Made by a program: the position numbers and the translations under genes | Shown here: positions 13,728-60,867 of the stretch, piece after piece | Layout of the letters: each line of letters begins with the position of its first letter | How positions within the stretch are numbered: the stretch's first letter is position 1 | Notes under the pieces: generated by a model | The model's input: the letters and a program-made list of their open reading frames with translations, nothing else | What the model was told of the DNA's origin: nothing | Databases searched by the model: none | Source of the DNA: Comamonas odontotermitis | GTDB taxonomy: Bacteria; Pseudomonadota; Gammaproteobacteria; Burkholderiales; Burkholderiaceae_C | Length of the DNA stretch: 64,000 nt | Direction of reading: 5' to 3' | Assembly (NCBI RefSeq): GCF_014207855.1 | Contig: NZ_JACHKZ010000021.1 | Location: forward strand, 1-64,000

Positions 13728-13729
13728 CC

Positions 13730-22700: not shown

Positions 22701-24919
22701 CGTCCATCACCGGTGGGGGTTGCCTCCACCGGTGCAGTGTTTTCGGCCTGCTCGCGCTCAGGCTTACCGACTTTTGCCCAAGCATTCATCGCCCGGTCCT
22801 TGGCAACCAGGGCTTCCGCCTCCATGATTCGCTCAGAAGGTCCCTTTTCATTCAGGAACGAGGCCACCTTGCCTACGCCACTGGTGCCACCGGCCATAAT
22901 GCCGCCCTGCATGAGCGTCTGGACAATGGTATCGGCCACCTGGCCCAGGTAGTCATTGAAGGTTGCGCCCTTGTTCAGGCCCATCTGCGTGAACTTGTCC
23001 GTAGCGAATTGTCCGGTGGTAGTCAGCACCTCGCCGGGGACTTCCTTGGACAATGCGTGAAACAGAAGGCCTGCGATCTGGTCAGACGGCATGCCCTTGG
23101 CAGCGCCGCGCAGCGCATCCAACTGATGGCCCAATCCAAAGCGCTCGCCAATGACTTCAAATGCCGCAAACAGCGCAGCGCGCTTTGTTGCGTCCGCCAC
23201 GCTCAGGCTCTTTTCGCGCCCTTCTGCATATTCCTGTCCAAAGCTTTGGGCTGCAATGCCGCCGAGCACCAGCGCCTGGCCGCCCTTGAGCGCCGCGCCC
23301 CCCATCAGCAGGGGCAACTGCTGTCCAATGGAATTGATGGCGCCCTCAAGGTTGCGCGTCATCATGTCGCCCCGCTCACCGATGGCAGCAGTTTTCTGCC
23401 CAATCAGCTTGTTATTGGCACTGGCAAAATCTTTGGCCAGCTCATCCGCACCACCCACCTCTGCAGCAAACTGCGACAGGCCCAGGGCAGTCTGCCCAAT
23501 GCCGAGAGCGGCTTTTGCCACGCCGCGCGCTACGGCGTTGTTTACACCGTTGCCTGATTGGTTGGGGTTGAACAGCTTGGCAGTTTCAAAGTCAAAATCA
23601 CTGTTGCCCACTGTAGGGTTGGCCATCAGTTCCTTGCCTGCTGGCAAGCTTTTGCGCGCCGCGTCCTTGCCCATAGTTTCGGCAAACGCCGCCTGCTCCC
23701 CGGCCAGCATCAGTCGCTGGCGACGGGCCTCCGCGCGCGTATCCAAAGGCGCGGGCGCCAATGTATCCATGCCCCGGGCGGAATCGGCTGCCCCCATTTG
23801 CTCCGCGCGCTGGCGTGCAACCTGGCCTTGCCAAGTGTCTTGTGCCTCCAAAGCTTTGCGCTGCTCGGGAGTTGCTGCATCCCAGGCGCCCTGCACAGCC
23901 TGGCGCATCTCTGGGCGCAACGGGATGCCAGAGGCGTCATTCTTCAAGACCGGAGCATTTGCCTTTATGTTCTCGCGGGTGAGAACTGAACCAGCCTGCC
24001 CTGCCTGGTCGTTGTTGAACTCGCCCATGCGGTCAATCTTGTTGCGCCCACGGCCAGCTCGGAGATTGACGCCAAAGGCGGCTTGCCCAGCTTGAGGATC
24101 TGTGGCCGGGGTATCCGTTGCGCGCGATGCGCCGGCGGCCGCTGGCGCCCCTCCAAGGAATTCAGCCCGAAGTGTGTCAGCATCGCCACCGGCGCGGGGC
24201 TTAATGAATGTGTCGAAGTACGCCTCTTTCGCGCTGCGCTGCTGCTCGGCGGACATCTCTGCAAACTCTGGTTTCGAGGCAAGCTCTGCCCATGCGGGCA
24301 CCTCTTGCGCAGCGGTGGGGGCTGGCTTGAGCTTGGCAAGCGAAGCAGAAGCCATCCCCGCGGCGGCCACCCCTTTACGGATGTAGTCGGGATCCTCGGC
24401 GTAGCCGCCCTGCTTGAGCGCAGTGAAGTAACTCCCAGCGTCCTTTGAGCCGATGACATTGCGGTAACGGCCTTTGCCAAGCAATCCGGCAAAGTCATCT
24501 GCAAAAGCGTCGCCATTCTCGTAAGCGCGGTACTTGTCCACGCTTCCCGTCATGTTGTCTTTGGCAGACACACCACGCCCGGAGAAGTCCTTGATATTTC
24601 CCAGGTTGTTGGTTCCTGGAATAACGGACTTTCCCCAGCCAGTCTCAAGACCCCACTGCCCAATGATCGCATCCACAGGTGCGCCGGTTTTCTCAGAAAC
24701 GCGCTGAGCCATTGGCAGTACTTGACCAACAAAATCGTCCACGCTCTTGGACGGTTTCACGCTTGCGCTCGAAAGCCCTACGGGAGAGGTGTACTCAGGA
24801 ATAGTGGGTGCGGCCGCTTGCTGCACCTCATTGGAAAAGTCAGCGAGCGCTTTGGCATCGCTGAGGCTTGCGGCCAGATTGTTGATGTTGAGTTCAGAAT
24901 TCTGGCCGTTTTGCTGCAT
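13730..24919 (-). CDS. Giant DarB-like internal virion protein (3729 residues)
   Basis: A huge polyvalent protein, last gene of the late operon. Domains in order: FlgJ-type glucosaminidase (about 60-190, likely catalytic Glu in QWGLETGWG near 92); hydrophobic segments near 540-600; low-complexity linkers; a ParB-like module (VSSDGHIIDGHHQ, near 1120); SF2 helicase of strawberry-notch/DarB type (Walker A GTGTGKT near 1470, DEAH near 1557, QQEGRIYRTGQ near 1973); N6-adenine methyltransferase (EPSAGHG near 2113, NPPFG near 2175); zinc peptidase motif HEFAH near 2465; polyvalent-protein associated domains to the C-terminus. Bcep22-like phages carry giant proteins of this class, and P1 DarB protects incoming DNA from type I restriction. 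It is probably packaged and injected to breach peptidoglycan and shield DNA. Confidence 0.93.
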   Translation of the reverse strand: MQQNGQNSELNINNLAASLSDAKALADFSNEVQQAAAPTIPEYTSPVGLSSASVKPSKSVDDFVGQVLPMAQRVSEKTGAPVDAIIGQWGLETGWGKSVIPGTNNLGNIKDFSGRGVSAKDNMTGSVDKYRAYENGDAFADDFAGLLGKGRYRNVIGSKDAGSYFTALKQGGYAEDPDYIRKGVAAAGMASASLAKLKPAPTAAQEVPAWAELASKPEFAEMSAEQQRSAKEAYFDTFIKPRAGGDADTLRAEFLGGAPAAAGASRATDTPATDPQAGQAAFGVNLRAGRGRNKIDRMGEFNNDQAGQAGSVLTRENIKANAPVLKNDASGIPLRPEMRQAVQGAWDAATPEQRKALEAQDTWQGQVARQRAEQMGAADSARGMDTLAPAPLDTRAEARRQRLMLAGEQAAFAETMGKDAARKSLPAGKELMANPTVGNSDFDFETAKLFNPNQSGNGVNNAVARGVAKAALGIGQTALGLSQFAAEVGGADELAKDFASANNKLIGQKTAAIGERGDMMTRNLEGAINSIGQQLPLLMGGAALKGGQALVLGGIAAQSFGQEYAEGREKSLSVADATKRAALFAAFEVIGERFGLGHQLDALRGAAKGMPSDQIAGLLFHALSKEVPGEVLTTTGQFATDKFTQMGLNKGATFNDYLGQVADTIVQTLMQGGIMAGGTSGVGKVASFLNEKGPSERIMEAEALVAKDRAMNAWAKVGKPEREQAENTAPVEATPTGDGRIEPVLEATAAGGVAAEELLTPAAPVEQSVPEAAQTGAQAADEVLGLAAARYQTLRSKRDGEVVQDSDGNYVEDGAQQLTAAEQAELRALEQYRGDADRLAAFYGLNQQAAPVDAAVQDAPAEVAEQAAPEAAYNASEAEDRAAYDWATRQEQEAPAATDANAELDIPDPLSGKSNVSQADAMRSLGFSEEEINGTAAGEPAQPVSPATVPEQKVTRPNSVEIDGDKATPRARWDAMDQDARASILMQSGSGITQAEAEKVAATPGKKLTQRRLDLVKDALQTADRTEAEVASTAKIQEGMKAFPAETGTMGVPRAEMPQVPAQSHGALVKHLNAKGIEHETQMVNAGALKPTQAEYSTEKVEKAKTAKGDRAVIVSSDGHIIDGHHQAVAAAEEGKPVKAIVLDAPVEQALQAVKDSPSANGGKAAAAPESEKTYGAANKLVTADRAAELRERLKKKLGQLNSGIDPEMLAIGTELAVFHIEAGARKFADFAEAIARDLETPISKIRPYLRSWYNGARDMMEDSNLPVDGMDSSETVRGELAKLQDTPTEAHDNAASPRTDLESDSTKPAAGSVLAGGDERRAGRDGQVDRGEGGRVRGEAQPGQQGDSGIPADRATADGERGDQRVHTGDGVSELAGIATGSDFRERGGDVGVGRVPPESIPTTTVRATATAGLEAAKARAGQRDSLKTPIARGIENVRATLPSLLPGQQEDVVKAETRFDNPDGYGMLFTNGTGTGKTFTGLGVIARKARQGKNNILVVVPDDKVLSDWIDSGKKLDLSITALADTKDAGHGVVVTTYANVGQNNQLARRSWDLIVADEAHKLMQSEDAKETDALKMVRALTLHPDGVWTRHYAKNADKLEEVRRLSDERKAAEEAGDKPATVTRLQEKIDDLNKELRALYEREKEFVLGNQGEKRPRALFLSATPFAYEKTVDWANGYLFEYPQAEGGAYNSGDGRQQFMMQHFGYRMRYNKLTAPEAGVDSGLMQRNFNSWLKREGVLSSRVLDVDADYDRRFVLIDSDLGNRIDAVFQWIDEQSRAEGKDQKAYHALEKLIRGSFDYLSRRYLLEAIKSEHSIPYVKKQLELGRKVVVFHDYKKGGGFNPFNVTANEHSDYEGMTADQRAALAGAVSEFRGEFKDLLSSGLENMLSPIEAYKKAFGDQVMAINGDEKAKAMLERYKKFNNDAELPAVLLVQSAKNAGWSGHDTTGKYQRALVNLGQPSAPTMAIQQEGRIYRTGQKSDAIIRYFNTGTSWEKHTFAGTIAGRASAAENLSLGEEARALKDAFIQAFEESDYYEPGHEGEGKGGKVRDRQINSALTEWDRAKAYYFGTQKKTAKTKAQEGKDYFATPEPLGLKMVQWADMRPGEDAIEPSAGHGAIARWFPDAVKRTVVEPSSTLRARLALNINPAEDRVVDGTFEDLAKSNKYDAIVMNPPFGVGGKTAMDHVDKAWGHLRDGGRLVALIPTGPAADKRLDAWLYGVNEKGQSNNPDAMLMADVTLPQVAFERAGTSVATRVLVLEKQSDADKRAGYGAALRIDLSGTENISDFFDRLEDIGLPTRAKEVAPIAQQAKALAETKKGTAAAVAKTWRGAEPIEAYVTKRGKTLYGVWRSGLTKEQAQEADPYTWNKGGKWFIRQEHLSDEVPAPKLNRKDQEAADALGKQLGLNVQATEQDDADLAAIAGALGSKLVRVDVPDADFNGAYYKGTTFITRNTDRPALAVLGHEFAHELRDKAPGLYKKLVDAISPYIEEKAYKEEFVGSKVAPDEMSKDATKEEFIGEVFSDGFMNKDFWRAVGKSNKQLLVQVQNALARLVRRVLVAVGYTPRTEKYLSDFKKVMQIAGEVMAEYNLSQVRLQKHAGIELDFDTRRVKAREFLDGPAVATLSGNEFARDGVPLTDKVPQWYAATGNALVHNPAIGQISLDKQAVSTTIAHGIGRNKSIAFASVPDVLRHGMVIHAEAMRGAHDDAMVYHVAAPVKLGDADMVQTVMVRKDENGARLYTHEIVPKKEIPRAGFKTGALKSNEDTPTGPGGGIMGSVLRNVFADNGVKFAGEGEAKLNRQDQPAKDAAESAADKAIEAIAQPTRFKTFNWYDKTLSTQYAKALKDKHFGKVFGLLNAQQSAVSMAAIRPSELAPMVLPKVDGVVHAFKQLVVGQGDLSPLGRASKALFAGTLAGEHVLDGKVFSEQELREKFGADDAAVAAYQQARAAIDASLMEVASAEVYALAATYLPADARREIMNNPMGAQSYVLGEFDKQIATTTKAMEAVAQRDPDIAASIGAQLTRMQESRTKAAQIFSHAQNLANAGYVPLMRFGDYTVTVTALDDDGSVLYDENGDRQTVLFQKFETQAEANAALRAARNKYKNGYLVEHGHDSKKSHELLRGVTPETIALFADVVGFDTVTQKYYEAALSERSALKRRLERKGTPGFSTDLPRMLSSFITSNARLASQRYYNRDINNAIRYIPQAKGDVKDEAVALRQFMGENKDGGAMASSLAFAWFLGGNVASALVNMTQPVMMTAPYLTQFGNPLPHLAKALPYALGKKQMADEGLKAALKRAGQEGIVDAQEIFHLYSAGTRGLSAKLVSAAAKVPGLADKVQSSGEGARARAQAFFTLWGSMFAAAEGFNRRLSFIAAWNMAVEQGQKDPYAFAVRAVNQTQGIYNKVSRPNWARSTTGRLLFTFKQYSLTYIELLNRMFHAGPAGKRAALTMLAVLVLASGEEGLPFAHDLDDLIDTVGQMFGLNTNMKRAKRDWAYATLGKTFGDLALYGVSAHLPLDFSGRLGLGNLIPGTGVLKPSNETIKSREATEVLGPIFSLVTQAADAVGALDEGNVGKAAANLAPTAVRNAIAGAEIMRKGYNTDARGRKVMDLPASAGAIKALGFNPTANAEKTRSTMPLMQDAALLRKRQNQITGSMTQAIIDQDDKALAAAVAQRDAWNDRYPDTPIVIKPTTIRSRIKNATLDKDMRVLKSVPKTMRAQAVNSMAGAEE
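20635..21039 (-). CDS. Nested gene inside the giant virion gene (unknown function)
   Basis: A 134-residue reading frame on the same strand as the giant gene but in another frame. The product looks like a normal globular protein (MQQVPAPIWNQIARSQPLDP ... DNKVILAFRLTAPLLMENEA ... LSPSQQRQLEQLLLQALKQL), while the giant frame over the same bases is a low-complexity Gly/Arg/Asp/Glu linker (about residues 1293-1428). An AGAGG lies nine bases before the ATG. This contrast suggests the nested frame is a real gene. No function is recognised. Confidence 0.6.
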   Translation of the reverse strand: MQQVPAPIWNQIARSQPLDPFWREVMSAEPDEMDKLIEAKVDGFAEKHSQDNKVILAFRLTAPLLMENEAISAFIQETGYLNLRASLPEVTSVNEAVMLASDEYRLSPSQQRQLEQLLLQALKQLRPAQASAIH

Positions 24920-27582: not shown

Positions 27583-28850
27583 CGTTTTGCACCTATTGCG
27601 TACAGCATTGCGTTGCCAATAGCGCTGGGTGAATCGCCCTCAAACTGCAGCGTTACCGTGGTGGTGGTGCCAGCACCGGCGTAAAAAGCATAGGCATGCG
27701 ATACCGTGATGTAGCCAGTGTCCACCTCATAGCCAGCAACTGACCCACCGTTGACAAGCAGCCTGGTCCCAGTCTTTCGGAAGCCGGAGCCGTAAGTAAT
27801 GATGCCCGTGGCGTGCACATACACCCACCCGGCGTAGTTCATGGTGACATTCAAGCTCACCACATTGATCCACGTTCCAAAGCCAACACCGGCCACACCC
27901 GACGGGCTTGAGTTGAATACTGGAACTGTCACAGCATTGCCAGCAATCAGCAGGGTATCAACCTGGGCCAGGCCAATCTTGGCAGTGGTGATGGTTCCGT
28001 CCGCTATAACCGCCGACTCGATGTACACGCCAGGCTGGACGATCTGCCCGTTCAGGTTTCTTGGCGTGGTGTAGACCACAAACGGAACCGCTGTTCCATT
28101 ATTCGGAGAGCCAATAGCAAAACGGTCGGCGCGGACAATGAAGGTAGAAACCGTGGCGCCGTTGTTCGCCTCGCTCATCAGGCCAAAGCCAGATACATGC
28201 CCGTTCAGATCCACCTTGATTGTGTACTTCGCCATCATCTGGCCGTCGGCGGTAGCGCGCGCGGAAGTCTCTTGCTGAATGAGCGCGGTATTCTGGCCCA
28301 CCTTGACTTGCAGATCCGTCAGCAACTGTGCGTAGGCAGAGATGTCTGTCGCCATGGTGGTGTACTTCTGCTGCAAGAGTGCATAGTTCCCATTCAGGAC
28401 GGCGTACTGCTGGTCGGTACGAATGATGATCGCGGCGTCTGCACTGACCCGCTCTTGCCGCTCCTGGAAGAAGTTGACGCCGTTCTTGCTGACGTCGATC
28501 TTGATGAGTTCGATCCGCTCCCCGAGCTCCTTCCATAGCAGAGAGTTGCGAATATCGTCCTGGATCTTGTTGAGCAGGCCGGGTACATCCCCAGGCTTGA
28601 GCACCTGTGGCGCAGTCGAACCGCCGCCCTTTTTTAGAGTCTCGGTCGCAGAAGCAATATCGATTCCTGCGATCTTGAGTTCTGCCCGGGTGATGAACTG
28701 CTGATTGCCATCTCCGGCCGTGCCGTTGCGCACGTTCATCCCGGTTGCCATGTCCTGCAGCACCTTGCGCACATTCGGATCGGCAACCGCATTCAGAGCC
28801 GTCTGGCTGATTGCTGGTACGCCTTGGTGACGAGAGTTGGGCGCGGTCAT
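27579..28850 (-). CDS. Tail tip / host-specificity protein with DUF1983-like domain
   Basis: A 423-residue structural protein. The central part is helical and Gln-rich, with repeated ALLQQKYTTMATDISAYAQL-type segments. The following sheet domain (STFIVRADRFAIGSP ... GVYIESAVIADGTITTAKIG) is the signature of DUF1983, the C-terminal region of lambda J-like tail tips. The C-terminus (NVTMNYAGWVYVHATGII ...) is a beta-rich domain. It probably forms part of the distal tail that touches the receptor. It overlaps the upstream 741-residue tail gene by four bases. Confidence 0.7.
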   Translation of the reverse strand: MTAPNSRHQGVPAISQTALNAVADPNVRKVLQDMATGMNVRNGTAGDGNQQFITRAELKIAGIDIASATETLKKGGGSTAPQVLKPGDVPGLLNKIQDDIRNSLLWKELGERIELIKIDVSKNGVNFFQERQERVSADAAIIIRTDQQYAVLNGNYALLQQKYTTMATDISAYAQLLTDLQVKVGQNTALIQQETSARATADGQMMAKYTIKVDLNGHVSGFGLMSEANNGATVSTFIVRADRFAIGSPNNGTAVPFVVYTTPRNLNGQIVQPGVYIESAVIADGTITTAKIGLAQVDTLLIAGNAVTVPVFNSSPSGVAGVGFGTWINVVSLNVTMNYAGWVYVHATGIITYGSGFRKTGTRLLVNGGSVAGYEVDTGYITVSHAYAFYAGAGTTTTVTLQFEGDSPSAIGNAMLYAIGAKR

Positions 28851-31072
28851 AGGCCTGCTAGCTCCTTTGCCTTCTCGGCCACTCTCAGCTCACGGAAGCG
28901 GCCCTGCCCAGAAACCTCGATCTTCCAGCGGTCAGACATGAACCCCGCGGGGAGGCGGAAGTCGGTAACTTTCTGCGTGATGGTTTCTGTGTGCGTGAGC
29001 ACATCGTCGGCATAGAACTTGATGTTCCAGTTTCCGCTGGCCACTGCCTGCGCAAAGGCAAAATTCAATGGCCTGGTCAACACCATCTCGCGCGATTTCC
29101 ACCTGCACTGTTGATCTTCACCAGCGTGGAAGGCATATATTTTGGATCCGACCACGTAATAAAGCTGGTCGGCCATCAGCCCGGTAAACGTGCATTGGGC
29201 CAGGAACCCCGGCAATTCTGTCATCGTGCCGCCCGCCTCATCCAGGCGGATGACAAAAGGCGTGGTGGTGTTGTCGTGGGTGTAGGCCAGCAGGCGGCCA
29301 TCGTTCATCCCAAAGCGCAGATTCTTGAGGTCGCCATTGGTGAACCGAGCGCGCCATACCTCCCGGGTAAAGAACACCTGAGAATCTCCGAGACCGGCCT
29401 GCACGCCAATGATCGTCACCAATCCGTCGGGGCTGGCGTAGATAACGCGCCCGGCCACGTTGATGATGCTCCACTTGTTCACCCCGGCCTGCTCAATGTT
29501 GAGTTGGCTGACCGTCATGGCATCAGGCGATATGCCCTCCACCAGGTAGGGCTGGGTGCGAGTGGTAATGATCGCCCCGGTGCCAATAGCACACGCACCC
29601 ACAACCTGACTCTTGAGCGGTTTCACATTCGCCGGACTCCAGGCCCAAGGGCGGTAGGCTTCCGAGAAGTGCACCTCGTTTTCACGCATCGCCATCAAAA
29701 TGCCGTTGGGCAAAAGCGTCAGGTTGCGCAGGTCTTGCGCGGGCGGATAGTTGTACAGCGCATTCAATTCCTCATTGAGCTCTGCGCCGTTTTTTGTGTC
29801 GCGGAAGCTGAGTACCTTAGGCCCAGTCTGCCCCGAAAGGAAAATGCTGTCGGTGTAGTAGTAGCTGGCAATGGATGTGCCGCTGCCAGTCCGATAAAAG
29901 CGAATCTCCGAAATCGGTACATACCCATCTACCGCGTCCAGCGTTGCGGCAATATCAACTATGCCCGTCGGCGTGGCGTCCAGCGTCAGAGGATCTGAGG
30001 GTGGGCCCTCTTCGTTGTACTGGTTGACGTAGGTGTAAACGTATGCGCGGGATTCAATATCCTTTTCCTCGGCGCCCGCCGTCATCTGGGCGTCAAACAT
30101 ATTGTTCTGGTTCTCCACCTTGACCAGATTGAGCTCAACAAACTGCACGGCAGCATAGAAGCTTGAGTTGCTGGTGTAGATGTCCAGGTATGTTTCGCCC
30201 GTCACCTTGTCCTTGGCGATGATGCGCAGCACTTCAAATGCCCCGTCCGGCGTGGCCTGGTCAGCGGGAACCTGAGATTCGTTGTTGGTCGAGTTCTCCA
30301 GCTCCGGTTTTGCGCAAGGCGCAAAGTAGCTGCCTGTGTAGGTGAACCAAGTGTCAGAGGGCGACAAGTGGTAGTACGCATTGAGAAATGCTCGGTCAGG
30401 CTCGGGCAAGCCGTGGTTGTCCAGGTACTCGAATATTGGCCAGCCGTTGGCAGCATAGGTGACGGGATTGCCTGCAATATTCGTTGGCCGGTTCGTCGTG
30501 GCAGAAGTCACCTTCTTCTTTGGCGCTGTGAACCGGGCGTTGGTCAAATTGCCGCTCGCGTCGAAAGTGGGCGTAACCGCAATAGCGCCCTCTTGGTGCT
30601 TGACGTTACCGCTCTCGTAATGGAAGCGATATTCAATGTTGTGCTTGTCTTTGTTGATGCGCTTGAGCAGCAGGCCTCCGCCGGCCGGGATGGTTGGCGG
30701 AGTGGTTGGGCGTGGCACGCCCACCTTGTAGGAGGTTCCCGGAACTCCACCGGTAGGCCTGGTGCCCATACGATCTGTCACCCTGAACCCGTCCGATCCC
30801 GTGTAGTACAGGCGTCGATGCAGGTCGTTTGCAATGGGTGAACGAACCGCATCCACATCACCGGGCCATGAGTAGAACGTCAGCCCGTCCTCGGTCCATA
30901 TGCTCGATGGCTGATTGCTCATCGAGTTGATGTAGAAACCGGCCTTCATGTTGCGCAGCTCGCCGTAGGCGAAATCGCAATGCTCCGCAAGGGTGGCCGC
31001 TGCCTCCGGCAACAAAGACTCTTGCACCCTCGGAAAGATACCAGTGAACTTGTTCAGGATGAACCCGGCCAT
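28847..31072 (-). CDS. Large tail protein, nozzle/tube-like
   Basis: A 741-residue beta-rich protein beginning MAGFILNKFTGIFPRVQESL LPEAAAT. Repeated segments such as LLPNGILMAMRENEVHFSEA and IIGVQAGLGDSQVFFTREVW look like propeller blades. Size, start and position between head-tail adaptors and internal proteins resemble the nozzle proteins of short-tailed phages (P22 gp10 / T7 gp12 type). This is an analogy of position and fold, not a confirmed homology. It follows the holin-like gene by three bases. Confidence 0.65.
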   Translation of the reverse strand: MAGFILNKFTGIFPRVQESLLPEAAATLAEHCDFAYGELRNMKAGFYINSMSNQPSSIWTEDGLTFYSWPGDVDAVRSPIANDLHRRLYYTGSDGFRVTDRMGTRPTGGVPGTSYKVGVPRPTTPPTIPAGGGLLLKRINKDKHNIEYRFHYESGNVKHQEGAIAVTPTFDASGNLTNARFTAPKKKVTSATTNRPTNIAGNPVTYAANGWPIFEYLDNHGLPEPDRAFLNAYYHLSPSDTWFTYTGSYFAPCAKPELENSTNNESQVPADQATPDGAFEVLRIIAKDKVTGETYLDIYTSNSSFYAAVQFVELNLVKVENQNNMFDAQMTAGAEEKDIESRAYVYTYVNQYNEEGPPSDPLTLDATPTGIVDIAATLDAVDGYVPISEIRFYRTGSGTSIASYYYTDSIFLSGQTGPKVLSFRDTKNGAELNEELNALYNYPPAQDLRNLTLLPNGILMAMRENEVHFSEAYRPWAWSPANVKPLKSQVVGACAIGTGAIITTRTQPYLVEGISPDAMTVSQLNIEQAGVNKWSIINVAGRVIYASPDGLVTIIGVQAGLGDSQVFFTREVWRARFTNGDLKNLRFGMNDGRLLAYTHDNTTTPFVIRLDEAGGTMTELPGFLAQCTFTGLMADQLYYVVGSKIYAFHAGEDQQCRWKSREMVLTRPLNFAFAQAVASGNWNIKFYADDVLTHTETITQKVTDFRLPAGFMSDRWKIEVSGQGRFRELRVAEKAKELAGL

Positions 31073-38311: not shown

Positions 38312-39583
38312 TTACGAGGCGAGCAAAGCCCGGCCGTCGGCGGATTCGATGGCAGGTGCGTAGGAGTCGAACACCGCGCAGCCGTGGTCGGTCATCACGC
38401 CGTCAATCTCGAAGCGGATCTTGGCGGTGCCTCCCATGTCGGCCGCAACAATCTCGATCACGTTGTCTGCGTCAGCCTTCCCCTCATACCAGTCGTAGAA
38501 GTACGCGCTCTCACCACCACTTCGGCCATACGCGCGGCCCAATGCCTGAGCGCCGACAATGATCGAACGGTCAGTGGGCACTGCAGCAGTTTTTTCCACT
38601 GGCGTGAACTTGTCATTCGTGCCCTGGTCAACCTGCACCTTGTCGCCCGCATTAAAGCGGATGGCGTAGCGCTTGAGGGTGGCAATCAGCATGCCGCCCC
38701 ACATGATGGTTTCCATGTTGTCGAACAGCGGATGCTTTGCACCAGGAACCTTGCGGGCCACAGCGTCTGCAACTGCCTTGGTCCATTCGGTGTTGGTGGC
38801 GCGCGTCCTGAGGTACAGGAACTGACGCTCGGAGACAAACCACACGTACAGCGGTGAGTTCCAATACTTGTCGTCGTTCTCGTACTTGATACCCTGCAGA
38901 GGGATTGTCGATTCGCGGATCTGAGAGGCCACGCGCTCGATGTCCTTGAAGGTCATTGCGTCGGTGGTGGCCAGCTCTTCTACGCTGGTTGCATCACCTG
39001 CGTAGAACTGCCGATTCTTGGTCGGAGCCTGGACATCATTGACCATGATGCCGCTGAAGTCCTCATCAGAAGACTGTGGAACCACCCAATCAGCGTGATT
39101 CTGAGAACCACGCGCACCAGCCAGTTGAACCAGAGTGCGCTGGTCTTCCAGGCGGCCCATGTAATCGGTAAGGCCCGTCATCACCACATCGCGCAGGTTG
39201 TGCACAGTGCGCTTCTGCGACATCTTGCCGCCGTTGTCAGCGCCGGCGCGGGTCTGGTTGATCCAGATGTCCATGCTGGAGCTGGATGTTTTCATCATCT
39301 TGCCCTGCACGCGGGTATCACCCATCACTGGCTTGCCGCGCAGAGGGTTGAACAGGTCGATGCTCACGCGGTCGCCAGCAGTCTTTGACAGATCACCAGC
39401 CTTGACCACGGGGTAACCTGGAGCGGTCTGATCCTTGGACTTGCTGCCGAACTCTGCGTTCTTGGGCATCGGGCCCGAGAGCATGTTCAGGAAGCCAGGA
39501 GCCTGCTGCACCTTGGTGAACAAGCCTGCAGAGAAGACTTTCGCAGCCAGTGGGCTGCCAATTGGAATGGAATTTGCTGCCAT
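38312..39583 (-). CDS. Major capsid protein (N4-like / DUF4043 type)
   Basis: A 423-residue coat protein starting MAANSIPIGSPLAAKVFSAG LFTK. The segment LFNPLRGKPVMGDTRVQGKM, with WINQTRAGADNGGKMSQKRT VHNLRD further on, is typical of the DUF4043 coat protein family known from N4-like and related podoviruses. It lies after the scaffold and before the decoration-like gene. Length is normal for the family. Confidence 0.85.
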   Translation of the reverse strand: MAANSIPIGSPLAAKVFSAGLFTKVQQAPGFLNMLSGPMPKNAEFGSKSKDQTAPGYPVVKAGDLSKTAGDRVSIDLFNPLRGKPVMGDTRVQGKMMKTSSSSMDIWINQTRAGADNGGKMSQKRTVHNLRDVVMTGLTDYMGRLEDQRTLVQLAGARGSQNHADWVVPQSSDEDFSGIMVNDVQAPTKNRQFYAGDATSVEELATTDAMTFKDIERVASQIRESTIPLQGIKYENDDKYWNSPLYVWFVSERQFLYLRTRATNTEWTKAVADAVARKVPGAKHPLFDNMETIMWGGMLIATLKRYAIRFNAGDKVQVDQGTNDKFTPVEKTAAVPTDRSIIVGAQALGRAYGRSGGESAYFYDWYEGKADADNVIEIVAADMGGTAKIRFEIDGVMTDHGCAVFDSYAPAIESADGRALLAS

Positions 39584-40987: not shown

Positions 40988-41062
40988 TGGTGGGCCCGGA
41001 AGGAATCGAACCCTCATCCCCCGGTTCGTAGCCGGGAGTCCTGTCCATTGAACGACAGGCCC
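40988..41062 (-). tRNA. tRNA-Arg (ACG)
   Basis: A 75-nt cloverleaf with encoded CCA. Acceptor GGGCCTG/CGGGCCC, anticodon stem CCCGG/CCGGG, loop CTACGAA (anticodon ACG at 41027-41029), T-arm GAGGG-TTCGATT-CCTTC. The spacer to tRNA-Gly (40910-40987) contains a strong stem-loop but no further cloverleaf. Confidence 0.9.
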
Positions 41063-41068: not shown

Positions 41069-41159
41069 TGGCGGAAGCACAAGGAATCGAACCCTCACCC
41101 GCTCTTCACGGATGGCGACGGTTTTCAAGACCGTTTCCCGACCTTCGGGGCATGCTTCC
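41069..41159 (-). tRNA. tRNA-Ser (UGA)
   Basis: A 91-nt type II tRNA with encoded CCA and a long variable arm, as expected for serine. Acceptor GGAAGCA/TGCTTCC, anticodon stem ACGGT/ACCGT, loop CTTGAAA (anticodon TGA at 41125-41127). Only six bases separate it from tRNA-Arg. Confidence 0.9.
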
Positions 41160-41520
41160 AATAGATGGCGGCCAGGAACTCCCGACCCTACATTGCTGCT
41201 TGACCATCTTGTAAGCGGGCAGGGCTTGATACCTGCTTCCGCGTTTACGGATCGGATGAATTTCCCGGTTGCCCGGGCTCTTTACGTCAATCTGCCGTGC
41301 GTGTCCTTCCACGCCGCCGCTTAGAAGATGCCCATCACGGCTGCCAGCTAGTTGGATGAAGCCCTGAGGTCTGCGATCCTCTTTGGCCAACTGGCATGCG
41401 TGATACCCATCGCTGAGAATTTGTGCCAGCTAACCAGGCTGGCCGGACCAGTTACGTGTCTGATTCCCTATGACCCAAGGGACGTATAAAGGACTGTTCT
41501 GTTTCCAGGCTATCAGTTGC
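41160..41520 (-). ncRNA. Structured RNA region of unknown identity
   Basis: Between the tmRNA tag segment and tRNA-Ser lies about 360 bases with a run of stem-loops. TGCCAG (41342-41347) pairs with CTGGCA (41391-41396), enclosing TTGG/CCAA and GAGG/CCTC. GCCAGC (41425-41430) pairs with GCTGGC (41438-41443). CCCT (41466-41469) pairs with AGGG (41478-41481). Part may be the 3' portion of the tmRNA coding piece; the rest fits no RNA family I know. A short open frame (41106-41390) crosses it but overlaps tRNA-Ser and is probably not a gene. Confidence 0.5.
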
Positions 41521-41528
41521 CCATGCCA

Positions 41529-41924
41529 TTAAGCGAAAGCAGCGTCCAATGCGACAGACTTCTTGGAAGAAGCCATGGCCTTGGCGATTGCGTTCTTGGC
41601 AGTCGTAATTGCGTTTGCATTTACTGTGGTTGCTTGGTTTCGCCTTGCGGCCGGGCTCCGCTTGCCCGAGTCGTAAATCTCCGCTTCCTCGCGCTGTCTA
41701 AACCAGGTCAGCCCCATCAAGTCATGCATCTGCTCATTCTCAGGACACTCTTGCGAGTGCGTCTTCATGAAACGAGAACCTCCAAATGCATGGCTTGGTG
41801 GAGCTGGGCGGAATCGAACCGCCGTCCAACACGCATCTACTTCAACCTCTTGGCAGCATCACTGCTTGCCTCACGACCATTAACGCTAACTGCAGGTGAC
41901 GAACTTACCCACTCGCCGCGTGTC
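41529..41924 (-). ncRNA. ssrA: Circularly permuted two-piece tmRNA (ssrA) with a 29-residue tag
   Basis: Rescues stalled ribosomes by tagging nascent proteins. The acceptor piece comes first and ends TTCGATT-CCGCC-CAGCTCC-A-CCA (41823-41796). An 80-nt spacer follows, then the coding piece starting GGGGCTGACCTGG at 41715. The acceptor stem pairs CAGCTCC (41800-41806) with GGGGCTG (41709-41715). Helix P2 joins both pieces: 41690-41696 with 41827-41833, 41673-41678 with 41835-41840, 41668-41670 with 41847-41849. Pseudoknot PK1 is CGGGC/GCCCG (41664-41668, 41652-41656) with GCGG/CCGC (41658-41661, 41647-41650). The resume codon GCA is at 41618 after ACAGTAAAT. The tag runs ANAITTAK ... ALDAAFA to TAA at 41529-41531. 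Outer ends are not resolved. An intact tmRNA inside a phage block is unusual. Confidence 0.88.
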
Positions 41925-42000
41925 TGGTTGCAATGGCTGGACTTGAACCAGCGACCTTCGGGGTATGAACCCGCCGAGCTACCAACTGCTCCACATTGCA
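41925..42000 (-). tRNA. Initiator-type tRNA-fMet (CAU)
   Basis: A 76-nt cloverleaf with encoded CCA. Acceptor TGCAATG/CATTGCA, D-stem GAGC/GCTC, anticodon loop TTCATAC (CAT at 41965-41967), T-arm with TTCAAGT. Bacterial initiator hallmarks are present: A11-U24 in the D-stem, three consecutive G-C pairs (29-31 with 39-41) at the anticodon stem base, and a weak U1-A72 pair in place of the usual C1-A72 mismatch. It is the first RNA of the cluster after the portal gene. Confidence 0.88.
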
Positions 42001-42111: not shown

Positions 42112-44241
42112 TTAAATTGAGTTAGGATCACTTTGCAATACGCGCGGAGCGATAATTGTTTCAGGTTGTGGCGTGGATTGCACAGGCGGAATGTTGACGC
42201 CAAAGCCAGAGGCGACAGTCTTGAGCGCCTGTAGTGTGGCCGCTAGCTCCACCGCCAACCCACGCGCTTCCATCAGCGTCTTCTCAGCGTCGGCATCCTT
42301 GGCCTTGATCTCTGCTGCGGTCTTGGCGTTGGCAAGCGCGGCCGCCTCCTGCTGGATCGCCATCTGCGCTTGCTGGGCCTGCTGGTTGGCCTCCTGCTCC
42401 GCCTGCATCTGTTCTGGCGTCTTAACTCCGGCCACCGACCGGATGCGGTCGGCAATCTCGAATTTCCGTGGGCTATCAGTCTGCTCAAACACGATGTCGG
42501 CCACAGCGGCCTGCATCTGCGGTGGCAGAGACTTGACCATCTCCGTCATCTGCTGCATCTGCTGCATCTTGAAGCTTGGTGTTGCAGGTACATCGTCCAG
42601 CACCAGGACTGGTCGCACGCGGGTGGTGTCGTTCTCTACCGTGGTCTGCCCAGTTGCTGGATCCGTCACGCGGCGGTTGAACACAATGACCCTGGCCTTG
42701 GCACCCTGCCCGATCTTGACACGGGTTTCCTTGCCGAGCATGTCCTGCAGGCGCATCTCGAAAAGCATCTGGCCAGCGATGCGGCGCGCGATGCGGTAGT
42801 TGTCATTCAGGTCGGCCAAACCATTAACGCCCTGCTCCACCAGTGAGTTGATCGCAAAGCCGCTGGTTGCGCTGGAGTTCTGGCCCATCAGCGCCTTGTG
42901 CACGCCCGAGGCCTCAGGGATGCTCTGCTTGGCCTCTTGCAGCGCCTGGAATTGCTGCGCAGAGATGTCGGCCCCACTGTCCACCTCAAAGCGAGAGTTA
43001 GGGCCGCGCTTCTCATTCAGCAGGATATAGGCATCTTGTCGAGATACCTCAGCAGCGGCAGCCTCATGATCTACCACGGCGTCAGCATCGGCAATCACCC
43101 GCTTGCTGTTCATGGCCCACAGCATCTTGCTCTTGCGCGCATTGACTTCGCGCTGCGGCGAAAGCATCACGCGGATGATGCCGTACGGCGCGCCGGTCAG
43201 GTCCTCGCGCTTGCCAAAGAACGGGACATAGGGAAAGAGCCGGTGCTGGTACGGGCTTTCCACGTCATAGAGCATGTGAGGGCCGACATACCAGGCAAGC
43301 CGCACCTTCTGGAAAACGGCCGGCTTCACCTGGGCGCCGTCTTCAACAATCAGGCGCTGGTGCTCCGGGTTGTCAAAGTCACACTCCACCACGGCGCCGG
43401 TTGGCAGCCTTAGTGTGTAGCCTTGCACCGCCTTGCGGTACCACACCTCGGAGATGAGCACGCTGTTGTCCACCCGGTTGACATACATGTGCTCGCTCAA
43501 CCGGCTGTCGCGGCTGATGTCGAAATGCTGCATAAGGCCCGTGTTGCCATTGTCAAGGATCGGGTCGTACCCCTGCCAATTGGTACCGCACTGGCGCAGC
43601 AGCTCGGCAAACATGGGGAACATGCCAATGGCGTCATCCAGCAACTGCCAGCGACGGCGGATCAGGTAGCGCGCGTCAGATAGGTCGGGCTCCTTGCTCC
43701 GCCAGTCCCAGTAGATCTCATTGCGGTGCACATACCGGGCGGTGTAGGCGTTCTGCGCCAGGCCGTCGCGCTCGCGCCCGATGTACACCCAGCCGAGCCC
43801 CGCCTTGACCTGGGCGGCGTACGCCTCCGAGGTGGCGCGATCTAGCCCGGATTCCGTCTCATCCCGCTTGACCAGCAGCGACAGGCCCTCGGCCATATCG
43901 TCGGTGCACACATCGTCGTCCTCGGCGCGCACGCGGAAGTCGGAGCGGCTTTTCACCTCCATGCCGAGCACAGTGTCCACCGTGGGCTGGATCAGGTTCG
44001 TGATGACCTCGGGCTGCCCTCGGTCCTCAAGCGTCTCCTTATCGTCCTGGGATAGCTGGTTGTTGTCGTAGAAGTCGCAGCAGATATTCGCCTCGGTGCG
44101 CCATCCGCTGGGCTGCTGGGGCAGCTCCATCATCCAGCCTTCAATGATCTTTCTGTCGAGCGGCTTGTCTGCAAGCTCAGGCGCGACTTCGGTTGCGTCG
44201 TCGGTCGGGGTTGTCCCGAAGTCAGCGGTAATAGTATTCAT
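42112..44241 (-). CDS. Portal protein (P22-like)
   Basis: A 709-residue portal subunit. The N-terminus (EVITNLIQPTVDTVLGMEVK SRSDFRVRAED) and DYR...REVNARKSKMLWAMNSKRV match P22-type portals, which form a 12-fold ring at one vertex and are longer than lambda-type portals. The C-terminus is a coiled coil rich in Gln/Ala (EQMQAEQEANQQAQQAQMAI), like the P22 barrel. ATG at 44241 with an upstream CCAGG is preferred; a GTG at 44307 just after terL would add 22 residues. Confidence 0.88.
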   Translation of the reverse strand: MNTITADFGTTPTDDATEVAPELADKPLDRKIIEGWMMELPQQPSGWRTEANICCDFYDNNQLSQDDKETLEDRGQPEVITNLIQPTVDTVLGMEVKSRSDFRVRAEDDDVCTDDMAEGLSLLVKRDETESGLDRATSEAYAAQVKAGLGWVYIGRERDGLAQNAYTARYVHRNEIYWDWRSKEPDLSDARYLIRRRWQLLDDAIGMFPMFAELLRQCGTNWQGYDPILDNGNTGLMQHFDISRDSRLSEHMYVNRVDNSVLISEVWYRKAVQGYTLRLPTGAVVECDFDNPEHQRLIVEDGAQVKPAVFQKVRLAWYVGPHMLYDVESPYQHRLFPYVPFFGKREDLTGAPYGIIRVMLSPQREVNARKSKMLWAMNSKRVIADADAVVDHEAAAAEVSRQDAYILLNEKRGPNSRFEVDSGADISAQQFQALQEAKQSIPEASGVHKALMGQNSSATSGFAINSLVEQGVNGLADLNDNYRIARRIAGQMLFEMRLQDMLGKETRVKIGQGAKARVIVFNRRVTDPATGQTTVENDTTRVRPVLVLDDVPATPSFKMQQMQQMTEMVKSLPPQMQAAVADIVFEQTDSPRKFEIADRIRSVAGVKTPEQMQAEQEANQQAQQAQMAIQQEAAALANAKTAAEIKAKDADAEKTLMEARGLAVELAATLQALKTVASGFGVNIPPVQSTPQPETIIAPRVLQSDPNSI

Positions 44242-44307
44242 GCGCGATGCCTGGTCAAAATAGTCGCAGTTGCGCAGATTTTGTGGATGCAGGCTAACTC
44301 GTACCAC

Positions 44308-45849
44308 TCACACCCAGCTCGAACCACGGCGGCGGCGCACTAGCTGGCCCGCCTTTGGCTTAGGTGGGGTGGCGGCGTAGCGCAGCATCATGAAGGCGTA
44401 GCGCGTGGCCGCCATCAAGTCATCTTGCAGCTTGACCACCTTCCCGTCCTTGCGGTGGTACAGACGGAACTCGTCAAACCAGTCGGTCAGATTGCTAAAC
44501 ACCTTGATCCGTAGCGGCTTGTCCTCGCCCGTGTTAACTCGCTGCTGCTCGTAGCGCGCTGGGTCATTGGCATAGAAGCCATCCAGCATGGCGATCAACC
44601 CGGCCTCGACCGATGTTCTGCTTACGCGCCCTTGTCCATCCGGTGAATGCCCCTCGGGGAATTTTGCATTTTCGTGCAACATGGCGACACCCTGGGCGCG
44701 GTATTGCTCGGCCAGCTGCTCGCCAGAACCCTTCTCGTGCTGTAGGCCGTCATGTGGCCATGCCATCGGGATCCAATCGCCCTTGCTCTTGATGGTGGGC
44801 GCCTGCTCTGCAGGAGTGGACTCACGCACCCGCATGGCGTCGTACACGTAGATGGTGTTCTCGTCTCGGTCCCAGGCGAGCCAAGCGGCTGCGCTAGGGT
44901 GATCCCAGCCAAAGTCCATGCCAGCGATACGCGGCCACAGGTCCGGCAACGGGAATGGGTCAACCGATATGAGTGAGTCTGCAACAGGGAAGATTCGCCC
45001 ACTGCCAAGCGTTGGGATGCCCTTGGCGCGGGCCTCGCGCTCATGCTCGGGGTAGCTGGCAATGATCTCGGCCTTCTTCTCTGCTGTGTAGTGGCCCACA
45101 TCGTCAATGGTCATGTTCACGTCCTTGCGCGCGGCCGTCGGGGCCTGCAAGAACAGGCGCACCACCTCCGACATACCCTTGAGGGGCGTGAACGTGATCC
45201 AGACAATCCCGCCGGTGGCATTGGTACGTGTCAGCGTCTCGGTGTAAATATCAAGCGGCGGCTCCTCATCCAAGGCCGCAAAGTCCAGGGTTTCGCCCTG
45301 CAGCTTGGAGCGCCCTTTTTCATAGCTTTTGAAGTACAGGCGCGACAGCCCGCCAGACTTGTGACGCACCGCCACACTGTCCACTGCGTCCGCAATGCCC
45401 TGGGCGCGCTTGGGCGTGCCAACGATTCGATCACCAGGGATAGTGCCAGTGCCCCACTCGCCGGGGCGCCCGAGCACCAAGCGCTGCAGCGTATCGCGGG
45501 TGGACTCCATGGATTCGCCCAAGGCCCAACCAACCACCGCACGATCCCAACGGCGCCCTCCCCACCATTCCGGGTAATCGCCCGTCAGGTGCATGGCTAT
45601 CTCATAGGCACTGCTCCAGGTCTTACCCAACTGGTTTCCGGCACGAAACAACCGCTCACGATAGTGCGCACCCTCGTTATGGAAGTCGATCTGCCTGGGA
45701 TACGGGGCATAGTCGTACAGTTTTCGGCGGGCCTTGCGCCTGGCCTTCTCCTGCAACAACTCCAGGAGCTGGACCTTTTCTTCGCGCGTGAGCTTGGACA
45801 GATTAGGCTTTGCCTGTGTAACCATTGATTTGCCTGTCGAGCTCATCAT
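44308..45849 (-). CDS. terL: Terminase large subunit (P22/Sf6-like)
   Basis: A 513-residue DNA-packaging ATPase and nuclease. Walker A is RAGNQLGKTWS (about residue 68-78), Walker B DFAALDEEPP, and the coupling motif is TFTPLKG. The RNase H-like nuclease begins AGMDFGWDHPSAAAWL, with acidic residues at the metal site. Length and motif order match the P22/Sf6 class (headful packaging). The start overlaps the small terminase by 47 bases; MVTQAKPNLS (45825) is an alternative start. Confidence 0.92.
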   Translation of the reverse strand: MMSSTGKSMVTQAKPNLSKLTREEKVQLLELLQEKARRKARRKLYDYAPYPRQIDFHNEGAHYRERLFRAGNQLGKTWSSAYEIAMHLTGDYPEWWGGRRWDRAVVGWALGESMESTRDTLQRLVLGRPGEWGTGTIPGDRIVGTPKRAQGIADAVDSVAVRHKSGGLSRLYFKSYEKGRSKLQGETLDFAALDEEPPLDIYTETLTRTNATGGIVWITFTPLKGMSEVVRLFLQAPTAARKDVNMTIDDVGHYTAEKKAEIIASYPEHEREARAKGIPTLGSGRIFPVADSLISVDPFPLPDLWPRIAGMDFGWDHPSAAAWLAWDRDENTIYVYDAMRVRESTPAEQAPTIKSKGDWIPMAWPHDGLQHEKGSGEQLAEQYRAQGVAMLHENAKFPEGHSPDGQGRVSRTSVEAGLIAMLDGFYANDPARYEQQRVNTGEDKPLRIKVFSNLTDWFDEFRLYHRKDGKVVKLQDDLMAATRYAFMMLRYAATPPKPKAGQLVRRRRGSSWV

Positions 45850-57002: not shown

Positions 57003-59405
57003 CTAGGCTGCCACGTAGCATTCTACAAGACCATTTTCAATTGTCTTTGTAATAAGCTTGGATTCGATAGCAGTATCCACAAGCTCTGTCAGCGCCTTTG
57101 CCTTGCACTTCATCAGCTTGAGCAGCTTGGATCGTGGCATGAAGCCCTGCGCCATGAGACTCGCGCGCCCCGGTTCGCTATCTGTCAACTTCCGCACGCT
57201 CTTGATGTAGCCAATCATGCGCTGCATCTGCTCATCGAAGTCGTTAACGGTCCTGGAATGTGTCACCGCATCGAGGAGGCGTGTGTCGTAGTGCTGCACG
57301 TACTCGATGGCCCATTTCAAATGCTGAGTGGTGATGACGGTATTACTCGCCTTCTCCGCCTTGCAGGCAATCATCGCCAGGCGCAGAGATTTTTCGAGAG
57401 TCCGACCCAGCAGAACATCCACGCCCTCATGCTCATGCTTGTCCTTGAGTGCATTCAGCTTGCGCTCGAATGCCTGGATAAGTGGCTCGCAGGCATCGTC
57501 AAAGGTGAGCGGGATGGTTGTTGGTTTCGTGTCTGCGCCGGTCGCGCCCGCCAGATCTCCCAGGTTCTGGCCAGAGATGTGCACCAGCCTGCACCACTCA
57601 AGAATATGGAATGGCACCTCGGCCGCGCGGCCCTTCAAATTGATGAGCTGGCGTGGTTGGGTGGACTCCACAACGATGCAGCGCCCCAAGAAGCCGTCTT
57701 TAATCAAATCGTCTGTCAGGTTGCTATAGAAGGTGTTTCCGGTGGTGGCACCCAGCAGCGTGATCGCCGGGTTGTAAACCACTCTCGCTTGTACCTGCTG
57801 ATCCTGCCGCAATGTCATTTGCGAGTATGTAGGCGGCCGCATGATCCCATTGACCCGCCCATAGGCTTCAACAAGCTTGTCAATGGCCGCCTCGCCGTGG
57901 CTATTGCCCTTGGCCCGGGACAATTTCAGCATTTTGCCGATCTCGTCGATGGTTGCCAGATGCGCCGGCGCCTGCAGAAGCTGCGAAAAAACTGCACCTG
58001 CCGACGTGTATCCGGAACCGCCGATGAGCTCAGGAAAACCAGCCTCAGTGAGTACATGCTGGATTGCCGCCTGGGGATGCTCTTTGCCTTCAGTCGATTT
58101 TGCTACCAGGATAAAGTACAGCGATGTGAAGTTGTTGAACTGCGACACATAGGTGCGCGCCATCAGCACACTGCCCAGCGCAATCGCAGCCGCCACGGCC
58201 AGCTCGGGCTGCGATTTTGGCGCGGTGGCGTTTATCCAGCGCGCTAACTCCCCCAGCATGCCGGGTGGGTTAACCACGAATGGCGGTAGCGCCGGTGCGG
58301 CATCCTCGCTGGTGGTGGGTGGCAGAAGTATTTGCTCCACGGCGGGCGCAGGCTTTGAAATGTCCGGAGCTCGTGAAATGTCCGGAGCTGCCTGCTCCAT
58401 GATGTTTTGCACAGCGACCGGCTGCGGAGCTTTGGCAGCGGATCCGAAAGTCTCGGGCACGATGAAGTCAGGCAGGCCTTCCACTGGCACGAGCTCAGCC
58501 AGCGCATCCACCGCACGGGCAAATGGAACCTGGTGCGAATTCATCACCAGGTCGATTGCCGTCATGCCATAGTTCCCGCCGAAATCAAAGATGCCGCTCG
58601 GGTGGACGCCGACGTTCGGGTTTTTCGCCCCCCGCCAGATTGCAATGCAGCGATAGCCGTCACCATGGCGCCTTGCCGTAGGAATGAGGCGCGGCACCCA
58701 CAGATCAGGGTTGGCCAGGGCCTGCTGATTCAGCTTGCTATAGAACTCGGCCGCCGCGGACAGATTGGTGTTGATGCGGTCGGTACTGTCCCGTGGTGCT
58801 GTCGCCCTGCGGCTTTGGTACTTGGTGTCGGCCTCAGTCTGGTACGGTGCAATAGTCGCCTGAACGCGCTGCAGAAAATCTGGCGGCAGAACGGGCAAGT
58901 CATCGGCCTCATACTCCTCAAGCATGTCTTCTGTGAGGTAGACATAAGTATGGCCGTCCGGGTGGCGCGTGCCGGGCATGAGAGTTTGCCTGCCATCGGA
59001 GAGCACATCGAGCACCCGCGCGCCGCCGATATTAAAGCTGCAGGATGGCTCGCCGCTGTAGCGAAAGAATGCTGTATACCCTTTGGCTCCGCGCTTCCTC
59101 ACTGGCGTCCATGGAATGATGCGATCCAGTGCGTCAGTGCCTTTGGTGTCGTAGTCCCGATCAAGCGCTACGATGCGCGACTGCTTTCCGCAAAGCAGGC
59201 CAATCCCAGCATCCGGCCACTTGTCCCACTCTTCCAGTTCGAGCTCGGTCGGCATGCGCTGAAAGTACCTCTCCCAGTCGCTCATGCCCCGCCACCCCTC
59301 AACCGAGGAATACGCCCCTGGTCGCTTGGTGCCTGGAGCAATAGGGATGACACAGTACCCGCGCTCTATATAGAAATAGGCACGTGAATCATATGGCGAA
59401 CTCAT
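57003..59405 (-). CDS. Phage primase-polymerase / DUF3987 helicase
   Basis: An 800-residue replication protein. N-terminal prim-pol domain: GYCVIPIAPGTKRPG, then IVALDRDYDTKG with the acidic metal site, and VLSDGRQTLMPGTRHPDGHT. A middle linker follows, then a DUF3987 domain with an atypical Walker A-like KSTEGKEHPQAAIQ and a following HLATIDEIGKMLKL segment. The domain pair is common in prophages that replicate with host polymerase. Overlaps the upstream gene by four bases. No separate DnaB helicase or DNA polymerase is seen in the window. Confidence 0.88.
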   Translation of the reverse strand: MSSPYDSRAYFYIERGYCVIPIAPGTKRPGAYSSVEGWRGMSDWERYFQRMPTELELEEWDKWPDAGIGLLCGKQSRIVALDRDYDTKGTDALDRIIPWTPVRKRGAKGYTAFFRYSGEPSCSFNIGGARVLDVLSDGRQTLMPGTRHPDGHTYVYLTEDMLEEYEADDLPVLPPDFLQRVQATIAPYQTEADTKYQSRRATAPRDSTDRINTNLSAAAEFYSKLNQQALANPDLWVPRLIPTARRHGDGYRCIAIWRGAKNPNVGVHPSGIFDFGGNYGMTAIDLVMNSHQVPFARAVDALAELVPVEGLPDFIVPETFGSAAKAPQPVAVQNIMEQAAPDISRAPDISKPAPAVEQILLPPTTSEDAAPALPPFVVNPPGMLGELARWINATAPKSQPELAVAAAIALGSVLMARTYVSQFNNFTSLYFILVAKSTEGKEHPQAAIQHVLTEAGFPELIGGSGYTSAGAVFSQLLQAPAHLATIDEIGKMLKLSRAKGNSHGEAAIDKLVEAYGRVNGIMRPPTYSQMTLRQDQQVQARVVYNPAITLLGATTGNTFYSNLTDDLIKDGFLGRCIVVESTQPRQLINLKGRAAEVPFHILEWCRLVHISGQNLGDLAGATGADTKPTTIPLTFDDACEPLIQAFERKLNALKDKHEHEGVDVLLGRTLEKSLRLAMIACKAEKASNTVITTQHLKWAIEYVQHYDTRLLDAVTHSRTVNDFDEQMQRMIGYIKSVRKLTDSEPGRASLMAQGFMPRSKLLKLMKCKAKALTELVDTAIESKLITKTIENGLVECYVAA

Positions 59406-60264: not shown

Positions 60265-60867
60265 ATGAAATCGATACTTGCACAGCGCATACAAGCTGCG
60301 CGTGAAGCAATGTTCCCGCCAGTCAATCAAAAAGACATCGCTACGAAGCTGGGTAGATCGCCTTCGGCTGTCTCGCTGTGGGAATCGGGGAAGAACGAGC
60401 CTCGCCCCGCGGAAATCGTCGCCCTAGCCAAGACGTTTGGTGTTTCTGTTGGGTGGCTTATGGGTGTTGACGAGGCTAATAATACTGTACAGATAAACAG
60501 TAGTCAAGGCACCCCGGTTGTCTCCATGGACGCCTTGAAAGAGTGGGATTTGTCGGCTCCTTCGGAGTACGTATACACGGCAAGAGACTACCCCACCGGC
60601 ACTGCCGCCGGGTTCATAAACAATAGCAGCGCATTACCATCTGTAGCGCCAATGGATGCTATTTGCATAGTATCCAAAGCACACCAGCCGACGAACGGGC
60701 GCCCCGTGGTTGCCGTCGTGAATGGCGACATCATGTTGCGTCGAATCGTTGTCGATGGGGGGCACACTTTGCTAATGGCCGACGACCATCGATTCCCATC
60801 CATACCACTGGATAAAGCGACAGTGCTTGGCAGCATTGTTGAGGTGATACAACGCACCACTCTCTAA
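60265..60867 (+). CDS. CI-type prophage repressor (S24-like domain lacking catalytic Lys)
   Basis: A 200-residue repressor. N-terminal HTH: QKDIATKLGRSPSAVSLWES GKNEPRP (about 22-48). C-terminal LexA/S24-like dimer domain: AICIVSK ... NGRPVVAVVNGDIMLRRIVV DGG. The usual catalytic Lys (VKRL in LexA) is Arg here (LRRI), the Ser assignment is ambiguous, and no Ala-Gly or Cys-Gly cleavage site lies in the linker. So RecA-stimulated self-cleavage is unlikely. GGAG lies before the ATG. A LexA-like box lies inside the gene (60485-60500). Confidence 0.85.
   Translation: MKSILAQRIQAAREAMFPPVNQKDIATKLGRSPSAVSLWESGKNEPRPAEIVALAKTFGVSVGWLMGVDEANNTVQINSSQGTPVVSMDALKEWDLSAPSEYVYTARDYPTGTAAGFINNSSALPSVAPMDAICIVSKAHQPTNGRPVVAVVNGDIMLRRIVVDGGHTLLMADDHRFPSIPLDKATVLGSIVEVIQRTTL
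60485..60500. promoter_or_regulatory. LexA-like box inside the repressor gene
   Basis: CTGTACAGATAAACAG fits CTGT-N8-ACAG, and flanking TA on both sides extends the symmetry. It lies in the codons of the linker between the HTH and S24-like domains. May be chance or a real internal LexA site. Confidence 0.45.

Follow-up and report, generated by a model that had tools for sequence, protein, structure and literature searches.

The element considered here lies in a 64,000-base stretch of Comamonas odontotermitis DNA (hereafter the window, meaning the whole stretch that was analysed), which corresponds to positions 1-64000 of a contig of 77,390 bases in a genome of 4.5 Mb. A prophage occupies much of the window, and its late block contains a minus-strand array of RNA genes in which ARAGORN recognises tRNA-Met, a transfer-messenger RNA (tmRNA), tRNA-Ser and tRNA-Arg. 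The tmRNA gene is called as permuted (tmRNA*) at 41438-41888 on the minus strand, with a tag of 29 residues, and it matches the Rfam family RF04321 (tmRNA_permuted) with 82.9 bits (E 2.3e-14; cut-off 47). On one side the array is bordered by the portal gene and on the other by a phrog_479 gene, which precedes the gene for the major head protein. The original prediction, made from the letters of the sequence, had placed the tmRNA between portal and scaffold genes; the portal gene was recovered, and the supposed scaffold gene proved to encode the phrog_479 protein, to which no function is assigned.

Read along the minus strand, the gene opens with the acceptor piece (within 41796-41924, with the predicted start put at 41888 by ARAGORN), which comprises the T-arm and the 3′ acceptor strand and ends with CAGCTCCACCA, the CCA end being at 41796. 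An 80-nt spacer that is expected to be excised follows (41716-41795), and the coding piece then starts with GGGGCTGACCTGG at 41715. The 5′ part of the coding piece extends from GGGGCTGA to the last base before the resume codon (41619-41715), and is succeeded by the tag frame, which comprises 29 codons for ANAITTAKNAIAKAMASSKKSVALDAAFA and a TAA stop codon (41529-41618; ARAGORN and sequence reading), and by a 3′ tail (41438-41528, the end being that given by ARAGORN). The permutation is shown by this order of CCA, spacer and GGGG together with the ARAGORN call, and a permuted tmRNA gene carried by a phage among its head-module genes was thus found as predicted.

A search of IMG/VR based on the portal protein yielded 27 loci, namely the phage of the window itself, three close relatives (L052, L053 and L054; portal identity 88-92%) and 23 distant loci (L055-L077; 35-42%). 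The original prediction had proposed looking for the same element in related prophages, and all three close relatives carry it in the same position, with a tmRNA_permuted match between tRNA-Met and tRNA-Ser (82.4, 82.9 and 78.1 bits, respectively) and the same permuted order on reading of the sequence. The identity between the window and L052, L053 and L054, in that order, is 98, 95 and 95% in the acceptor piece, 97, 94 and 93% in the 5′ coding part, 96, 34 and 21% in the spacer, 38, 51 and 51% in the DNA of the tag, and 44, 44 and 46% in the tail, whereas the tails of the three relatives are 91-99% identical among themselves. This pattern suggests that the parts serving rescue have been kept, that the spacer is replaceable, and that in the window copy the tag and tail have either diverged or been exchanged for others. 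A search with a stretch of the window tail, made to trace where this divergent part came from, matched no record besides that of the window itself. ARAGORN called the L052 gene correctly, miscalled that of L053 as one-piece and missed that of L054; Rfam found both. Because one of the two copies with a 36-residue tag was miscalled and the other missed, surveys that use no tool other than ARAGORN may underestimate the number of long-tag tmRNAs.

Of the elements on which the rescue function of such an RNA would rest, P1 and the T-arm are intact in this gene, and candidate P2 helices and a pseudoknot can form. First, P1 is fully paired in all four phage copies, with seven pairs including a G3-U70 wobble, and so is the T-arm (five pairs; 41807-41823, minus strand). 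Second, whereas three P2 segments had been proposed to join the two pieces, pairing analysis gave two candidate P2 helices of at least seven pairs and no third: one of seven pairs (41690-41696 on the coding side, with 41827-41833) and one of eight to nine pairs (41669-41677 on the coding side, with 41870-41878). Both can be formed in each of the four copies, in which the sequence hardly varies. Third, the H-type pseudoknot anticipated upstream of the resume codon (41647-41668, minus strand) can form, with CGGGC pairing with GCCCG and GCGG with CCGC. None of the differences between the window and its relatives breaks P1, the T-arm, either P2 helix or the pseudoknot, and the only difference within a P2 helix changes a G-C pair to G-U.

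The spacer has a structure of its own. The GNRA hairpin claimed at 41746-41759 is indeed at that position within the 80 bases, and it sits within a larger spacer stem; the fold of the window spacer is more stable than expected from shuffled sequences (z -2.56; 5 of 200 shuffles were as stable). This hairpin-bearing spacer is common to the window and L052, and is not shared by L053 or L054. A stem closing the ends of the spacer is nevertheless found in all four phage copies (9, 9, 10 and 7 pairs), although each is weak individually, being matched by 45, 29, 18 and 86 of 300 shuffles, respectively. Among 69 unique spacers, drawn from 96 IMG/VR loci called by ARAGORN and including that of L052 itself, 93% have a closing stem of at least four pairs, compared with 45% of shuffles, and the closing stem therefore looks like a general feature of permuted tmRNA genes. 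Presumably it serves processing.

The tag is the part of the window copy with the unusual feature, namely its end. As originally described, it is long (29 residues) and lacks an LAA-type end: ANAITTAKNAIAKAMASSKKSVALDAAFA, rich in Ala, Lys and Ser, terminates in AAFA and thus has no xAA end of the ClpXP type. The tag of L052 is ANAFASSSVAAIAAIASAKASAFARDVRPMAA (32 residues), that of L053 is ANAFASSSVAAIAAIAKASASSKGAVAANGGFAVAA (36 residues), and that of L054 (36 residues) differs from the latter at one residue; two of these three end in VAA and one in MAA. In the alignment, L053 and L054 encode VAA in nine bases ahead of the stop codon, and the window copy lacks these bases. We also examined 111 IMG/VR loci, of which ARAGORN called 96 permuted, three one-piece and the remaining 12 not at all; the search patterns bias this sample, and one of the pattern searches contributed 80 of its 120 stretches. 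Within it, 93 of 96 tags have an AA end and none has an AFA end, and tags of 22-32 residues occur in eight of 96, one of which is the close relative L085, on the same contig as L052. Because the window tag lacks the VAA or MAA end of its three nearest relatives, evasion or redirection of proteolysis is plausible. The literature on phage and two-piece tmRNAs that we consulted yielded no description of a phage tmRNA tag without a degron, and one may still exist in print.

An AFA end need not mean the loss of a signal. Lon is the protease that chiefly reads the NYAFA-ended tags of Mollicutes, and Mesoplasma florum has a longer tag than E. coli (PMC9382460); by analogy, the tag of the window could be a degradation signal for another protease. 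The likeness consists of length and an AFA end in place of LAA. It stops there, in that the lineages are unrelated and the window tag ends in DAAFA, lacking the NY and sharing AFA alone. Moreover, PMC9382460 reports that NYAFA-ended tags evade most, though not all, E. coli proteases, and since the relatives of the window copy keep VAA or MAA, any likeness to the Mollicute tags would be convergence. We therefore regard this as an unlikely explanation.

The host background bears on what such an RNA could do. The original prediction had named a normal ssrA elsewhere in the genome, combined with destroyed P2 or acceptor pairing, as evidence that would speak against it; the host does have an intact one-piece tmRNA on another contig (tag ANDERFALAA; 190.2 bits), but in the phage gene P1 and the T-arm are intact, and no difference from the related phages breaks the candidate P2 helices. 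Phages often integrate in ssrA, and ssrA is reported to be a frequent integration site of genomic islands as well (PMC11915505), so that a leftover of a host ssrA gene acquired through integration might be considered. This was rejected: the host gene is one-piece, intact and on a different contig, the phage gene is complete and permuted, and the prophage integrase gene (L047:9378-10560, on the same contig outside the window) is about 25 kb away from the tmRNA. Such an origin is extremely improbable. The host has a single SmpB gene (C21:74530-74958), which lies on the same contig about 6 kb past the prophage integrase, and an SspB gene is also present. Given the single host SmpB, the main effect of the phage RNA could conceivably be to compete with the host tmRNA for it and thus inhibit host trans-translation, as has been proposed for the RNA of phage DS6A, which consists of the tRNA-like domain only (PMC11915505, PMC4131195). 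Since an inhibitor of this kind would need none of the tag frame, pseudoknot and resume codon, all of which are kept here, we consider this role very unlikely.

Taking these features together, we interpret the element as the two-piece, circularly permuted tmRNA gene of a temperate phage. Most likely it is functional, and we think it probable that it rescues ribosomes while adding a poorly degraded tag. At the level of sequence, this is supported by the gene anatomy, the intact P1 with G3-U70 and T-arm, the open tag frame, a matching arrangement in three other phages, and the presence of a separate host tmRNA and SmpB. The tmRNA would be transcribed with the late genes as part of a tRNA-tmRNA-tRNA array, its spacer would be cut out by tRNA-processing enzymes, and P1 and P2 would keep the two pieces together. 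It would be charged with alanine, would use host SmpB and, late in infection, would free ribosomes that had stalled on broken or non-stop mRNA, then appending the long tag. The VAA- and MAA-ended tags of the three relatives are probably degradation signals. Because the window tag ends in AAFA and lacks the nine bases encoding VAA in two of them, it is probable that ClpXP degrades proteins bearing it less efficiently or that their degradation takes another route, with rescue retained. The growth of lambda-immP22 in E. coli is reported to rest mainly on ribosome rescue, tagging possibly being secondary (PMC2862035), and a tag without a degron could therefore still serve a phage. A stronger proposal, which we advance only tentatively and think unlikely, is that the phage has made trans-translation a form of rescue without degradation, with its late two-piece tmRNA competing with the one-piece tmRNA of the host for SmpB and stalled ribosomes and its degron-less tag sparing incomplete proteins from ClpXP.

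Several observations weigh against a working permuted tmRNA. The covariance models proposed as a check gave divided results, in that RF04321 exceeds its cut-off and the betaproteobacterial family RF01850, the best of its clan for the window tmRNA, remains under its own (64.6 bits, E 3.4e-19; cut-off 84), which also sets the gene apart from that type. RF04321 is itself not specific for permutation; because the one-piece tmRNA L013 of a related genome reaches 81.7 bits, an RF04321 score alone is no proof of permuted order. In minimum-energy co-folding, P1 and the T-arm were recovered for each of the four copies, and neither P2 helix for any. The P2 and pseudoknot pairs are nearly invariant across the four close copies, so that covariation says little on the P2 helices, and the paired bases of the pseudoknot, being the same in each copy, are without covariation support. 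In the D-loop region (41694-41707, minus strand), the four phage copies and one further IMG/VR contig, L163, read GGTTTAGAC, whereas most sampled permuted tmRNAs have GGTTTCGAC or similar there. SmpB was not found in the four phage records, which are possibly fragments; a working phage RNA must use that of the host. Finally, no prophage other than this one is known to have the AFA end.

The divergence of the 3′ half raises the further question of whether the gene is a decaying copy, in which the tmRNA of an ancestor worked, the tag and tail degenerated here, and the host tmRNA does the work. The low identity of tag (38-51%) and tail (44-46%) to relatives whose tails are nearly identical to one another, the absence of excess fold stability in the tail (z 0.09 against shuffles) and the intact host tmRNA would fit such a history. 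It would leave unexplained why the tag frame has stayed open across 29 codons, why the acceptor piece and the 5′ part of the coding piece retain 93-98% identity and unbroken P1, T-arm and P2 pairs, and why, by eye on the alignment, the divergent tail preserves one consensus helix by a two-sided change from C-G to A-U. Decay thus seems to us unlikely, and a functional gene remains the preferred explanation.

Why phages carry their own tmRNA beside that of the host is the question at stake. In these four related phages, the rescue parts are near constant and the tag is variable, one copy being without the standard degron end; a variable tag of this kind makes possible a sharp test between a phage gain from ribosome rescue and one from choosing which proteins undergo degradation. 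For bench work, it is the altered tag end that merits attention.

Carriage of a permuted tmRNA by a phage, for which the original prediction could name no precedent, is already known, and long tags occur elsewhere; the unusual part is the tag end. The tmRNA genes of phages Bxz1, Wildcat and G are one-piece, and share with the window gene the fact of being carried by a phage. A list of earlier phage tmRNAs includes all three, with no two-piece label (PMC4131195). In PMC9004378, 402 of 18,146 phage genomes are reported to carry tmRNAs, in 133 unique forms; ARAGORN classed 53 of these forms as two-piece, 50 of them being marine or aquatic, and the 96 permuted calls in our 111 loci point the same way. 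PMC11915505 lists 79 phage tmRNA sequences with a commonest tag length of 10 residues, and tmRNAs have been reported in Bradyrhizobium phages (PMC12656738). Phage Melnitz and the other two-piece cases of PMC9004378 resemble the window in that a phage carries a permuted tmRNA; however, that of Melnitz is of alphaproteobacterial type and is described in an operon directly upstream of a transcription coactivator, with a glutamine riboswitch, whereas here the gene belongs to a tRNA array within a prophage head module. Compared with permuted tmRNAs of RF04321 in general, the window gene has the same order of acceptor before coding piece, the spacer, G3-U70, the T-arm, the pseudoknot before the resume codon and the tag frame, but it is phage-borne, exists next to a one-piece host tmRNA and has a 29-residue, AFA-ended tag.

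Within the host family, the RF04321 cut-off is exceeded in 19 of 299 genomes, and ARAGORN, applied to 20 of the 29 loci L011-L039, called 18 one-piece and two permuted tmRNAs, the latter in genomes G227 and G168, which additionally hold a one-piece tmRNA. These two permuted tmRNAs, at L011 (1410-1751) and L012 (1410-1749), have the tags ANQDVYHVEQMPLAA and ANDERFLAAA. Ten neighbouring proteins showed no phage family in Pfam, six being without any match, and these tmRNAs are therefore not counted as phage-borne.

More distant phages yielded no further copies. In the available stretches of 29 distant portal loci (L055-L077 and L078-L083), many of them too short to speak for the whole phage, ARAGORN and Rfam detected no tmRNA, and ARAGORN called one tRNA-Gly, in L076; nor did they detect one in the examined stretches of three phages related by terminase, Rhizobium phage RHph_N2, Achromobacter phage CF418P1 and Microcystis phage MJing1. 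In a blastn search with 41400-41930, 429 of 50,697 phage records matched at E ≤10; the best of the matches listed had an E value of 2, which gives no close relative among named phages. A BLAST search for a second copy in 399 genomes of the order gave matches in 166, and apart from the window none of those listed exceeded 56 bases.

The prophage includes genes for a repressor (60265-60867), primase (57003-59405), terminase (44308-45849), portal (42112-44307), major head protein (38312-39583), internal virion protein (28847-31072) and a multi-domain protein. An IMG/VR record of 55,608 bases covers this stretch and is identical where compared. No exact repeat longer than 13 bases, as a candidate attachment repeat, is shared by 9001-15000 and contig positions 66000-72000, and 38000-46000 gave no match in plasmids. 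In the RNA array, tRNA-Met (cat; 41925-42000) is directly upstream of the tmRNA, and tRNA-Ser (tga; 41069-41159) and tRNA-Arg (acg; 40988-41062) are downstream, all on the minus strand and found by both Rfam and ARAGORN; the original prediction makes no mention of these tRNA genes. L053 has additional tRNA-Glu and tRNA-Pro genes (10307-10462) before tRNA-Met; the array therefore appears to gain and lose tRNAs. A 3729-residue phage protein is encoded at 13730-24919 on the minus strand, separate stretches of which match endolysin, DarB-like antirestriction, helicase and DNA methyltransferase families. Beside the prophage, 1240-10952 (minus strand) holds type I restriction-modification genes (HsdR-, HsdS- and HsdM-like) together with AAA ATPase and Mrr-like nuclease genes. 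At 11372-12493, also on the minus strand, a single frame begins with a match to an integrase arm domain and finishes with matches to TrbI and DUF2274, resembling a fusion of the start of an integrase with a conjugation gene.
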